48,597 nt of DNA from Candidatus Saccharimonadota bacterium. GTDB taxonomy: Bacteria > Patescibacteriota > Saccharimonadia > Saccharimonadales > Saccharimonadaceae. Position 1 is the stretch's first letter. Each line of letters starts with the position of its first letter. A program made the translations under genes and the position numbers. The stretch spans positions 1 to 48,597 of the forward strand of contig JAFWLO010000003.1 in assembly GCA_017545595.1 (NCBI GenBank), written 5' to 3'. Of this stretch, positions 3,333 through 37,781 are shown in pieces. The notes under the pieces were generated by a model. It was not told where the DNA came from. It made no database searches and worked only from the letters and a program-made list of their open reading frames with translations.

Positions 3333-4109
3333 ATGGAACAAAACACAACCGCCACAACGCCCGTCATGAATAGTGGTGAGCAAAAGAATGGAAAAGGATG
3401 GAAAGTTGCTACAACAATCGCTTTAGTTGTGGCTGTTTGTGGCGTTGGATTTGGCATCTATGGCATGTTGCAGAGTTCTCAAAAAGACAATCAGATTTCT
3501 GATTTGAAAGTTCAGGTTGAGGATTCTAATGGTAAGATTACCTCCTTAGAAACTGAGAAAATTGAAACTACTGATAAGAATGGTGCAACGGTGACTATCG
3601 CTGACTCAGTAATGTCTAATCTTGGATTTATGGTGAATTATAAAGATATCCCTATGGAGCTTGTTCCTGCATCTTATGGCAAAAATAAATATTATTTATA
3701 TCCTGACGGAAAAGTCATTGTTCGCCACGATTGGACACGATACAACGACACGGATCTTCCTACAGACCAAAGAAAAGAAGATGATTTAACATCTAGATTT
3801 AATAGCAAAGTCATTGATTTGGCTGAAGGGCATCTTCGCAATGGTGCTATTTCGACACTATTCTTTCTTCAAGACGATGGAAAAGTTGCATGGATACATG
3901 ATCTTGAATTGGTTAAGGATAGCAACCAACCAATTGCATATATAGAGGATACACAAGAAATAGCTCACCTTTATGGAAACTACTATAACAATTATGGGAA
4001 CTACTATAACAAAGATATCGCAGGTTTTGTTCGATCAAAATCTGGAGAGATTTATGCTATAAAGCCTGTCTTTGAAGATGGTTATGTCGTTAAATACATT
4101 TTAGATTAA
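3333..4109 (+). CDS. Membrane-anchored coiled-coil protein, unknown function
   Basis: 258 aa from the ATG at 3333, chosen because AAGGAA precedes it by 4 nt. An in-frame ATG at 3315 lacks a ribosome site. A polar N-terminus (GEQKNGKGWK) leads into one membrane helix (about residues 24-45, ALVVAVCGVGFGIYGML). A short coiled coil with QISDLKVQVEDSNGKITSLE character follows, then an external globular domain of about 190 residues rich in Tyr/Asp. A 21-nt duplication gives YGNYYNNYGNYYN near residue 215. The topology suggests an N-in, C-out surface protein. I do not recognise the external domain. Together with the zinc-ribbon mini-ORF upstream it resembles zinc-ribbon/TM proteins common in this phylum. 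Confidence 0.75.
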   Translation: MEQNTTATTPVMNSGEQKNGKGWKVATTIALVVAVCGVGFGIYGMLQSSQKDNQISDLKVQVEDSNGKITSLETEKIETTDKNGATVTIADSVMSNLGFMVNYKDIPMELVPASYGKNKYYLYPDGKVIVRHDWTRYNDTDLPTDQRKEDDLTSRFNSKVIDLAEGHLRNGAISTLFFLQDDGKVAWIHDLELVKDSNQPIAYIEDTQEIAHLYGNYYNNYGNYYNKDIAGFVRSKSGEIYAIKPVFEDGYVVKYILD

Positions 4110-4290: not shown

Positions 4291-4560
4291 TTCTCCACCC
4301 TCTTCGACTCAACGCTATCTATGAATGTAGGAAGTGGCTTAACCAGAGCTGACTCCGGTATTCTATCCGAACCGTTTGCGCTTCCCCGTAGCGGCTACTA
4401 TGGCTGGGTCTCTACTAGCCTTAGCAGTAGGAGTTCGTACGGCTACTACTGGTCTTCGAATACTTACGCTACCACGTACTCCCACGAACAGCTCTTCGCT
4501 TCTACAAACTTCAGTCCTCAGCATGGGAGCAACAAGGGCAGTGGCATTACAGTGCGGTGT
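4291..4560 (+). repeat. FISUMP cassette 1 (silent DGR-like variable repeat)
   Basis: A 270-nt unit that encodes, in one frame, only the last ~90 residues of a FISUMP/C-type-lectin-like domain. The frame runs FDSTLSMNVGSGL, then GILSEPFA, the YWSS core, and ends GITVRC at 4558-4560. It has no upstream gene, promoter or ribosome site. The ATG at 4321 lies inside the domain and aligns with an internal Met in the other copies. After the final Cys the frame runs out of phase into cassette 2. The unit aligns with cassettes 2, 3 and 5 over 240 nt without any insertion or deletion. Differences concentrate at codons that are AAC or AAT in at least one copy. Confidence 0.8.
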
Positions 4561-4567
4561 GTCGCTC

Positions 4568-4837
4568 TTCTCCAACCTCTTCGACTCAACGCTTTCTATG
4601 AATGTAGGAAGCAACCTCGCCAGAGCCGACTCCGGTATTGTCTCCGAACCGTTTGCGTTTCCTCGTAGTGGCTACTATAGCTGGGGCACTGCTGGCTTTT
4701 ACTATAGGAGTTCGTACGGTTTCCACTGGTCTTCGCGTACTTACCATACCGCGGACTCTCGTTACCATGGCTTCTACTCTTCGTACTTCGGCCCTCAGGC
4801 TGGGCGAAGCAAGGGCTACGGCTTTACGGTTCGTTGT
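4568..4837 (+). repeat. FISUMP cassette 2
   Basis: Same 270-nt unit 7 nt after cassette 1, starting at the shared TTCTCCAACCTCTTCGACTC boundary and ending at the Cys codon 4835-4837. Its variable codons encode R, Y, S, G, G, Y, Y, F and R where cassette 3 has mostly N. The surrounding frame (GIVSEPFAFPRSG, YFGPQ, GFTVRC) is conserved. A chance open frame from cassette 1 runs into it, but this is a product of codon structure, not a fused gene. Confidence 0.8.
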
Positions 4838-4882
4838 CAAGCTTCAAAAATTATGAAGTTCTTGCAGTTTTACAAAGCGACT

Positions 4883-5148
4883 TCTCCCTTTTCAGTTCAA
4901 CGCTATCTATGAATACAGGAACCAACTTAACCAGAGCCGATTCCGGTATTCTATCCGAACCGTTTGCGTTTCCTCATAGTGGCGCCTATAACTGGAACTC
5001 TACTAGCCTCGGCAATAGGAGTTCATACGGCAACTACTGGACTTCGCATGCTTACTCTACCACGCGCTCTCACTACCAGGCATTCGGCTCTACCATCTTT
5101 GGCCCTCAGAATGGGAACAACAAGGGTTACGGCGTCGCAGTTCGTTGT
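4883..5148 (+). repeat. FISUMP cassette 3, closest to the presumed template
   Basis: From the internal ATG (4909) to the Cys codon (5146-5148) it is 240 nt, exactly as in cassettes 1, 2 and 5. Its left 25 nt are diverged. At codons 28, 30, 36, 42, 68, 70 and 71 of the unit it carries AAC or AAT, the state expected of an unmutated template. It is therefore the copy nearest to a hypothetical template repeat. Confidence 0.8.
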
Positions 5149-5159
5149 ACTATTTCTAA

Positions 5160-5252
5160 TTATCGCAGAACGATGACACAACGAATTGCGAGTCCAGCCC
5201 CCTTGTAGTCAGCACTTTCGGGCAGAAAAGAGGCTGAGCTGAAGAAGGCAAA
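5160..5252 (-). pseudogene. Inverted, diverged FISUMP C-terminal fragment
   Basis: Between cassettes 3 and 4, on the opposite strand, 30 codons read as another FISUMP end: AFFSSASFLPES, then ADYKGAGLAIRC, a short tail VIVLR and TAA. It is clearly related in pattern (F-S-S, P, KG.G.A.RC) but much more diverged than the five cassettes. It abuts the truncated left end of cassette 4, so a rearrangement joined the two. Confidence 0.6.
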
Positions 5253-5477
5253 AACTTAACCAGAGCCGACTCCGGTATTATCTCCGAACCGTTTGCGTTT
5301 CCTCGTAGTGGTCGCTATATCTGGGGCTCTACTGGCCTTAACACTAGGAGCTCGTACGGCTACTACTGGTCTTCACATGCTTACTCTACCACGCTTTCTC
5401 GCAACCAGCTCTTCAGCTCTATGTACTTCAATCCTCAGTCTGGGTACCACAAGGGCTATGGTTTTACAGTTCGTTAG
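5253..5477 (+). repeat. FISUMP cassette 4, 5'-truncated
   Basis: The unit begins only at codon 6 (ACTTAACCAGAGCC) where the inverted fragment ends, then aligns without gaps. Its last codon is TAG in place of the TGT (Cys) of the others, so it ends GFTVR. The variable codons again keep their third base (R, R, I, G, G, N, T, Y, H, L). Confidence 0.78.
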
Positions 5478-5550: not shown

Positions 5551-6768
5551 ATGATTAAGAGAAAAACTTATTTAGATAGAGTTATGGCCTTCGCTGATGC
5601 CGATTTGATAAAAATCTTGGTTGGCATTCGTCGCGCCGGCAAATCTTCTATCCTAACCGGAGTGGAGAACGCCCTTCTTCGCGGTCGTCATGTCGCTAAG
5701 AATAACATTATAAAAATCAACTTCGAAGATCTCGATTATCTCGATATTTCCACGAAGTCTGATTTTCTTAAGCTTGTGCGACCCTTTGTTGGAGACAGGA
5801 CCGAAAAAAAATATTTTCTTCTCGACGAAGTTCAGCGTATCGACGGTTGGGATGAAGTCGTCAACGGTCTTCGCGTAGCTGGAGCCGATGTCTATCTTAC
5901 CGGGTCGAACTCTAAACTTCTCTCGAAGGAACTCTCGACCTATCTCACTGGTCGTTTTATCAATACTCAAGTTTTCCCCCTTAACTTCTCTGAATATCTC
6001 GATTTCCGACGCGCTTCCGGAGCTGAGCTAAAAACTCTCAGTGAAGAGTTCAAGGCGTTTATGGAGCGTGGCGGTTTTCCGGCGCTCCACACCTCCGAGA
6101 GAAGCCTTTCCGAATGTGACGAATATATTCGTGACGTTTATTCTACCATCATCTTCCGTGACCTCGTCGAGCGACACAAAATCCGCAATACAGAACTCCT
6201 TACGCGCATTGTTAAATATATTTTTGACAATATCGGGAATCTATTTTCCGCTAAGTCTGTCGCTGACTTTCTTAAATCCGAACAACGAACCCTGTCCATC
6301 GAAACTATCTATAATTATCTCAAATGGCTCGAGGAAGTCTTTGTTATTTTCCGCGTTCCGCGCACTGATCTTCGAGGTAAGAGCATTCTAAAAATGCAGG
6401 AAAAATTCTATCTCGGAGATATCGGTTTTCTTTATGCCGTCAACGGTCGTAACAGGTCGTACTCCTCTGGCGTTCTAGAAAATATCGTCTTCTGCGATTT
6501 GGTTTCTAAAGGATATGACGTTAAAATCGGCAAAAATGGAGATAAGGAAATCGACTTTGTTGCCGAGCGGCAAGGCGAGAAGCTTTATCTTCAAATATGC
6601 GAAACTTTAAAGGGTGAATCTACGCGCGAACGAGAGTTTTCCGCATTCGAGGGTATAAATGACAATTTCCCAAAATACGTCCTCGTCGGCGATAAATCTT
6701 CCATTCCTGCTTCAAAAAACGGAATTTCTGCTGTATATCTTCCAGATTTTCTTCTCTCTTTACGATAA
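5551..6768 (+). CDS. AAA-family ATPase with DUF4143 domain
   Basis: 405 aa. The N-terminal AAA_14 domain has Walker A GIRRAGKSS near residue 25, Walker B YFLLDEVQ near residue 90, a sensor VYLTGSNSKLLS near residue 115, and the GRF.N.QVFPLNFSEYL region typical of the family. After a middle helical part, a DUF4143 (PD-(D/E)xK-like) C-terminal domain carries LENIVFCDLVSKGYDV and KEIDFVAER. Members are widespread in reduced genomes and their biochemical role is unsettled. The gene sits exactly between FISUMP cassettes 4 and 5, starting 74 nt after one and ending 8 nt before the other. A second, divergent paralogue is at 32395-33738. Confidence 0.92.
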   Translation: MIKRKTYLDRVMAFADADLIKILVGIRRAGKSSILTGVENALLRGRHVAKNNIIKINFEDLDYLDISTKSDFLKLVRPFVGDRTEKKYFLLDEVQRIDGWDEVVNGLRVAGADVYLTGSNSKLLSKELSTYLTGRFINTQVFPLNFSEYLDFRRASGAELKTLSEEFKAFMERGGFPALHTSERSLSECDEYIRDVYSTIIFRDLVERHKIRNTELLTRIVKYIFDNIGNLFSAKSVADFLKSEQRTLSIETIYNYLKWLEEVFVIFRVPRTDLRGKSILKMQEKFYLGDIGFLYAVNGRNRSYSSGVLENIVFCDLVSKGYDVKIGKNGDKEIDFVAERQGEKLYLQICETLKGESTREREFSAFEGINDNFPKYVLVGDKSSIPASKNGISAVYLPDFLLSLR

Positions 6769-6776
6769 TTCTACGC

Positions 6777-7046
6777 TTCTTTAACCTCTTCGACTCAACG
6801 CTATCTATGAATGTAGGAAGCAACTTAACCAGAGCCGATTCCGGTATTCTCTCTGAACCGTTTGCGTTTTCTAGTAGTGGCGCCTATATCTGGCACTCTA
6901 CTGCCCTTCACGGTAGGAGTTCGAGCGGCAACTACTGGTCTTCGCATACTTACTCTACCACGGGCTCCCACTACCAGGTCTTCTATTCTACGGGCTTCTA
7001 TCCTCAGGATGGGTACCGCAAGGGCTACGGCTTTACAGTTCGTTGT
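6777..7046 (+). repeat. FISUMP cassette 5
   Basis: A complete 270-nt unit with the same left boundary sequence as cassettes 1 and 2 and the same 240-nt body. The variable codons read S, A, I, H, A, H, G, N, H, G, D, R, again with conserved third bases. After the Cys codon it continues for 8 codons (VAFIEKLLK) to TAA. It starts 8 nt after the ATPase stop codon and has no promoter of its own. It could be co-transcribed with the ATPase but has no ribosome site at the internal ATG (6807). Confidence 0.8.
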
Positions 7047-36776: not shown

Positions 36777-37781
36777 TTAGCTTAAGAGAGATTTTCCGGC
36801 GCAACGCGAAAACTTCCTGTTTTTGGAGAGTTTTCGCATTCGCGAGCGACGAGAGATTTCTTTCTGGACCCTATCGAACTCTCGAGGAGGAATAATAGCA
36901 TCGTGAGAATCTTTTATGTACCATTGTTTTCTTTCGCCGAAGTTCTTTCGGGTTTCGTGAGACAAAAAATCGACCGTGTAGGTCTTTTGGAGGAGAGCGT
37001 CGCCCTTGTATTTTTCGTTAGAGAGGATGCTTCGAACTGTCTCAGGAGACCATCTGGCCTTTCCGCGCGGAGTCGGAACGCCGTCGAGAGTTAGGGTTTT
37101 CGCGATTCCGCGGAACGACTCTCCGGACAGAAATTCGGCGTAAATCCGCCGAACTATATGAGCCTCCTTCTCGTTTATGACGGGGAGACCGTCACTCCCG
37201 CGGTCGTAGCCGAGAAAACCTTTGTAGGGGAGGGTGATTTTGCCGGATTCCATCCGACGCTGTATTCCCCAGCGAACATTCTCGGAAATTGAACGGCTTT
37301 CTTCTTGAGCGATGGACGACATTATCGTAAAAATTAGCTCCGCAGTCGGGTCAAGGGAGCTGATGTTTTCTTTCTCGAAATATACCTCAATTCCCTTCGA
37401 CTTTAGCTCGCGCGTCACAATCAGAGCGTCGACGGTGTTACGTGCGAAGCGAGAAATCGACTTCGTGAGGATGAGGTCGATTTTTCCGGAAAGGGCGTCT
37501 TCGACCATGCGAGAAAAGTTGTTGCGTTTTTTAAGATTCGTTCCAGTCAGTCCGGAGTCGGCATAAATCTCGACAAGTTGCCAGTTTGGGTTCGAGGAGA
37601 TATGCTCGAGATAATAAGATATTTGGGCAGAATAACTGTTTGTCTGGGCGTCGAGTTCGGTCGAGACGCGCGCATAGGCAGCGACTCGAACCTTTTCTCG
37701 GCTTTTGTTTGGGTTTTTATGGGGTGTTTTTTGAGGGTTGTGGATTATGATTGTTTCTCGTTTATGGGTTGTTCCAGCCAC
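36777..37781 (-). CDS. Large serine recombinase, C-terminally truncated
   Basis: 334 aa. The catalytic resolvase domain has VRVAAYARVSTELDAQ near residue 31 (nucleophilic Ser), YADSGLTGTNLKKR near 84, LILTKSISRFARN near 110 and IAQEESRSISENVRWG near 165. The Recombinase domain follows (GFLGYDRGSDGLPVI, SPETVRSILSNEKYKG). The protein stops at KFSRCAGKSLLS, where full-length relatives (450-550 aa) begin their zinc ribbon and coiled coil. No remainder is found downstream. The start is GTG with GGAGG, inside the last codons of the upstream surface gene (20-nt overlap). Probably inactive for integration, or a minimal invertase-like form. Confidence 0.85.
   Translation of the reverse strand: MAGTTHKRETIIIHNPQKTPHKNPNKSREKVRVAAYARVSTELDAQTNSYSAQISYYLEHISSNPNWQLVEIYADSGLTGTNLKKRNNFSRMVEDALSGKIDLILTKSISRFARNTVDALIVTRELKSKGIEVYFEKENISSLDPTAELIFTIMSSIAQEESRSISENVRWGIQRRMESGKITLPYKGFLGYDRGSDGLPVINEKEAHIVRRIYAEFLSGESFRGIAKTLTLDGVPTPRGKARWSPETVRSILSNEKYKGDALLQKTYTVDFLSHETRKNFGERKQWYIKDSHDAIIPPREFDRVQKEISRRSRMRKLSKNRKFSRCAGKSLLS

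Follow-up and report, generated by a model that had tools for sequence, protein, structure and literature searches.

The window is a stretch of 48,597 nucleotides, contig C15 of the 745-kb genome of a Candidatus Saccharimonadota bacterium that is assembled in 15 contigs. Five short cassettes (c1 to c5), one cassette remnant and a gene for an AAA_14/DUF4143 ATPase lie near its left end (Table 1). Cassettes c1, c2 and c5 start at TTCTCC or TTCTTT and extend exactly 270 bp up to a Cys codon, and the common left end and constant length claimed for these three in the original prediction were confirmed from the coordinates. Cassette c3 has the same left end and a box one codon shorter; c4 starts about 45 bp later than the long cassettes, and TAG replaces its Cys codon. 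The junction between c1 and c2, which follow head to tail, is only 7 nt, GTCGCTC, and c5 starts 8 bp past the stop codon of the ATPase gene. The reverse-strand remnant would be a weak assignment on its own and is supported by the tail-to-tail pattern seen elsewhere. Among the seven AAA_14/DUF4143 ATPase genes in the genome, four adjoin a cassette, the template or a variable-repeat (VR) copy, and these ATPases may be markers of plastic sites or participants in the process.

Table 1. Coordinates of the cassettes and related features, in the window or, where a contig (C) or locus (L) is named, elsewhere in the genome
Feature	Location	Strand	Description
Cassette 1 (c1)	4291..4560	+	long type, 270 bp, VR copy; 19/37 template mismatches on adenines, P=0.002
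Cassette 2 (c2)	4568..4837	+	long type, 270 bp, tandem to c1; 29/44 mismatches on template adenines, P=1e-7
Cassette 3 (c3)	4882..5148	+	long type, 267 bp; 17/31 mismatches on template adenines
Reverse cassette remnant	5175..5252	-	3' quarter; profile match 10.9 bits, ends ...GAGLAIRC; tail to tail with c3
Cassette 4 (c4)	5253..5477	+	short type, start AACTTAACCAGAG; 21/33 mismatches on template adenines
AAA_14/DUF4143 ATPase gene	5551..6768	+	between c4 and c5; PF13173 E=6e-29, PF13635 E=2e-17
Cassette 5 (c5)	6777..7046	+	long type, 270 bp; 22/32 mismatches on template adenines
Serine recombinase	36777..37781	-	Ccr/XisF family-related; 30 kb from cassettes
Other AAA_14/DUF4143 genes	C7:22952-24226; C2:65242-66528; C5:1067-2341		beside cassette, template or VR copy
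Template repeat (TR)	C2:66869-67074		C2:66879-67073 encodes same core as cassettes; Asn at all 17 variable sites, AAC codons
Diversity-generating retroelement (DGR) reverse transcriptase (RT)	C8:106492-107598	-	intact, 374 aa, GNxxSQ and YVDD motifs; profile of relatives' DGR RTs E=3e-178
Putative expressed gene	C4:1-2805	-	935+ aa, hydrophobic signal-like N-terminus, FISUMP match from residue 503
Truncated copies with longer left ends	C5 (from SQVDGN); C2:53 kb (from YAAT); C2:68 kb; C8:54 kb
Second repeat family	L035:3306-3487, 3810-3993; L032:13766-14014; L033:5495-5691		non-coding

Copies across the genome and their ends

At the DNA level 55 cassette matches were found in the genome, and a protein profile gave 56 in the loci examined; about 50 cassette copies are counted genome-wide, which favor one or other of two left ends and have a single right end. 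They occupy at least 12 places on both strands, in clusters at C7:17-27 kb, C2:42-44 kb and C8:54 kb, with others on C3, C5, C6, C10 and C11 that lie close to contig ends or right at them, and neighbours are arranged in tandem (15), tail to tail (12) or head to head (10). The long left end (box TTCTCC...AGC) is found in 20 copies and the short one (ACCAGAGCC...) in 31. Homology to the VR gene is lost at the same 1-2 nt, 6 or 7 nt left of the ADSG codon, in 21 of the 31 short copies, whose left flanks form 20 clusters unrelated to one another, and because of these two observations the left boundary is not a matter of chance. The claim of unrelated flanking DNA is thereby borne out, as is the rejection of random truncation, which would not leave some 30 copies with their ends confined to about 12 nt. 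The same boundary was also found inside a longer gene, where it had been proposed to look. Right ends fall at the Cys codon or a few nucleotides past it (GTCGC). The left end has exceptions in four gene-like copies, one on C5, two on C2 and one on C8, which reach further left to differing extents; variable ends elsewhere had been named as what would make the boundary a coincidence of three copies, and the ends proved sharply preferred, though two left ends and four longer copies exist.

Hallmarks of mobile elements were sought at the cassettes. Target-site duplications, which the original prediction had suggested looking for, are absent (shared flank word 3.80 nt observed vs 3.97 nt shuffled), and no attC-like hairpins stand downstream (mean z 0.10). 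No terminal inverted repeats were seen, and by eye no repeat recurs between the two heads and the tail. Searches with PF00589 and PF00239 placed no recombinase beside the cassettes: the former matched once, at an Xer-like tyrosine recombinase (C2:25460), and the latter matched serine recombinases on C15 at 37 kb and on C5 at 42-43 kb (two) and a fragment at C9:20 kb. The mechanism recognising both ends that had been proposed is thus favored by the preferred ends and disfavored by the second left end and the absence of these hallmarks, and is at most a hypothesis.

Template, reverse transcriptase and frame conservation

To judge from their sequences, the cassettes are almost certainly VR copies of DGR origin. 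Compared with the template, the gene-like VRs of C5 and C2 have 19-24 differences at adenines and 0-1 elsewhere. In the 35 type-A cassettes, 759 of 1124 mismatches fall on template adenines, which make up 27.5% of sites (P=7e-171), and positions 1-2 of the Asn codons are changed in 58% while position 3 rarely is. The adenine bias is significant in each window cassette taken singly (P 0.002 to 1e-7). Away from the adenines, type-A copies diverge by up to 16%, and the 16 type-B copies by 29-53%, yet the latter are still open. An RVT_1 (PF00078) search of the genome matched only a DRT-type RT on C9, which was set aside as the DGR RT once a profile built from relatives' enzymes found the gene on C8. 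Neither template nor cassette lies beside the C8 gene, and the 272-aa ORF directly upstream of it, considered as an Avd-like accessory protein, has no confident Pfam or NCBIfam match. The C9 enzyme is DRT type VI-like and lies with an HTH partner and two DNA methyltransferases at C9:15.4-19.3 kb (L044:5431-9301), putatively a separate defence locus.

Downstream of the template, and likewise of the gene-like VRs on C5 and C2, stand a hairpin and CCCCCTCCCCC. No such hairpin/C-tract element (IMH and hairpin) follows the Cys codon of the cassettes, which are therefore VR copies and not full DGR targets. The IMH-like element that had been suspected after the Cys codon thus exists after the template and the gene-like copies only, and the suspicion of a DGR behind that suggestion was right in substance. 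Two further loci may be mentioned here. At C8:53993, a recombinant copy, the left end is gene-like and the right end cassette-like; at C2:53.9-54.1 kb (L034:3400-3572) a left flank that by eye resembles the template's is joined to the 68-nt VR 3' element from the Cys codon with the body missing, apparently an emptied template site.

The putative expressed gene on C4 encodes a protein that ends ...PLGWQLPRNSG at the contig end, just before the cassette box, so that the expressed VR falls in an assembly gap. There is accordingly one putative expressed copy and many partial copies without a start of their own, as in pilS-like arrangements. The cassettes are presumed silent, since the short types have no in-frame start and evidence of promoters is lacking. 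A PDB profile search returned antifreeze-protein matches only, none significant.

Every full copy among the approximately 50, including the 16 divergent ones, is open in frame and free of frameshifts, and the only stop among all distinct variants is the final codon of c4, whereas 7.6 stops would be expected (P=0.003). In five structural codons none of 175 adenines is changed, compared with 584 of 980 in AAC codons. The two ACG codons differ from each other (T35 changed in 17/35, T45 in 1/35, P=1e-5), and there is also heterogeneity between the AAC sites (P=0.0007), site 57 being aromatic in most copies. Because the structural adenines are unchanged, selection at the protein level before storage is probable, although local RT context effects could account for part of the pattern. 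Changes private to single cassettes look neutral with respect to missense: 19 are synonymous, and 22.0 would be expected. Current selection on single cassettes is therefore weak.

Probable exchange between copies and recurrence in relatives

The left-arm adenines of the cassettes are not mutated, so that copying went through DNA and not through error-prone cDNA; error-prone reverse transcription of the target mRNA was ruled out as the copying route on this ground. LINE-like 5' truncation was likewise rejected, as the fixed short left end does not fit it. Nearly all cassettes carry unrelated variants, and long common tracts occur in two pairs only. The recombinant copy at C8:54784 has a cassette-type core that runs into the DGR 3' element at the Cys codon, and its codons 39-53 are the same as those of C7:25471. 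C11:1075 and C2:43009 have 16 of 17 variable codons in common, but their left flanks are related and the pair is therefore possibly a segmental duplication. A further repeat family, non-coding and about 190-260 bp long with copies 88-96% alike, also adjoins the template and the cassette arrays and has no match in Rfam.

The DGR RT is found in 39 of 60 sampled members of the genus, and cassette-like short frames are abundant in several of them. Arrays with fixed ends of their own and unrelated flanks occur in the genomes G008 (left end TTCCAGAGCTC), G011 (TTTCCCGCTCCGGCAACAA) and G045 (CTCCACTGGTAGCC), with hypervariable codons of NNY form in 293 of 300 cases in G008 and 143 of 143 in G045; G086 holds a template and at least one cassette. 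The genus survey found no DGR RT in G045, which may reflect a gap or a loss. The G045 array (L157-L162) is very regular, with two cassette families alternating face to face, and its gaps measure 28-33 nt tail to tail in 7 of 9 pairs and 111-142 nt head to head. No full-length gene cut at the array boundary was found in the relatives' genomes, and scans of public genomes and viral contigs gave no further relatives.

Origin and proposed use of the cassettes

The observations are best fitted, and probably explained, by a DGR that feeds a pilS-like repertoire of silent cassettes exchanged by homologous recombination. On this account a single secreted surface protein with a FISUMP domain would be the source, and the cassettes would be silent copies of its variable C-terminal VR that have kept the frame. 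The DGR, with its RT on C8 and all-Asn template on C2, would rewrite template adenines and so turn AAC codons into NNC in the VR. Working variants would then be copied as DNA to other places, from ACCAGAG or TTCTCC up to the Cys codon, the endpoint at which the template repeat also ends. Lacking the 3' hairpin/C-rich element, the copies would probably be shielded from further rewriting and could act as donors, with conserved arms (33-81 bp on the left, about 20 bp on the right) serving homologous recombination back into the C4 gene. DGR origin, fixed ends, frame conservation, the missing 3' element and recurrence in relatives are the observed parts of this account; silence, storage after protein-level selection and the use of cassettes as donors are what we infer. 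Extended further, it would become a two-stage system: the DGR invents binding variants, and a dedicated copying process with fixed ends stores those that have been tested as cassettes proof against the DGR, from which the expressed gene is later resupplied. This extension is possible and is offered tentatively.

The cassettes could instead be functionless by-products of duplication of the DGR target, their ends fixed by breaks at fragile or repeated sequence. Neutral missense changes, the lack of target-site duplications, remnants such as window 5175-5252 and solo heads of 18-20 nt, and the variable left ends of the four gene-like copies all agree with this reading; but the intact frames of even the most divergent copies, the deficit of stops, a left end precise to the nucleotide in about 20 unrelated contexts and recurrence in several species of the genus make it unlikely. 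Less likely again are cassettes that are active targets, rewritten in place by the RT in trans, with arrays merely multiplying the targets. RT and template are intact and unlinked, so that action in trans is needed anyway, variants differ between nearly all cassettes, and trans activity of a DGR has been reported in Thiohalocapsa (PMC10907252). Rewriting in place is, however, opposed by the missing 3' element, since the prototype DGR of BPP-1 requires a hairpin downstream of the VR for efficient homing (PMC3240598), by non-adenine divergence in type-A copies that homing would erase, and by structural adenines left untouched although silent DNA has no filter. Movement or inversion of cassettes with defined ends by shufflon-, integron- or transposon-like site-specific recombination is the least probable reading, for although fixed ends, many tail-to-tail and head-to-head neighbours, the regular gaps of G045 and serine recombinases in the genome (one in the window, two on C5) are in its favor, no repeat is common to the two heads and the tail, duplications and downstream hairpins are absent, no tyrosine or serine recombinase adjoins the cassettes and the sole tyrosine recombinase is Xer-like.

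The R64-type shufflon resembles the cassettes in having alternative C-terminal segments in both orientations; here no common recombination site lies at the segment ends and no adjacent tyrosine or serine recombinase was found. The silent repertoire favored above is closer to Neisseria pilE/pilS, where a single expressed gene is accompanied by many promoterless partial copies with common flanking homology. The pilE/pilS silent-cassette gene conversion (PMC6796969, PMC4023411) is among the closest known systems, but here diversity comes from a reverse transcriptase, the cassettes lie at 12 or more places on both strands, and transfer from donors is only deduced. With the DGRs of the Patescibacteria clade (Roux et al. 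2021, PMC8144416) the system has in common the RT type, adenine-specific template rewriting, a C-terminal VR of a surface protein and a hairpin element 3' of the target, and it differs from them in the unlinked RT and template and in the approximately 50 extra VR copies outside the target gene that carry neither the 3' element nor starts of their own. No description of DGR silent cassettes was found in the open PMC literature, subscription papers lying outside the search.

DGRs are regarded as generators in which each new product replaces the one before. A genome in which about 50 earlier products persist, frame-intact, precisely bounded and inaccessible to homing, would give a hypermutation system a store and perhaps a means of recall, and would offer a testable link between retroelement mutagenesis and antigenic variation by gene conversion. 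Cassettes annotated as small ORFs may have entered surveys as DGR targets. The copies show how a genome of 745 kb expends space on binding diversity, and if the two-stage reading is true, an ultra-small, probably epibiotic bacterium would possess a heritable memory of useful binding surfaces.
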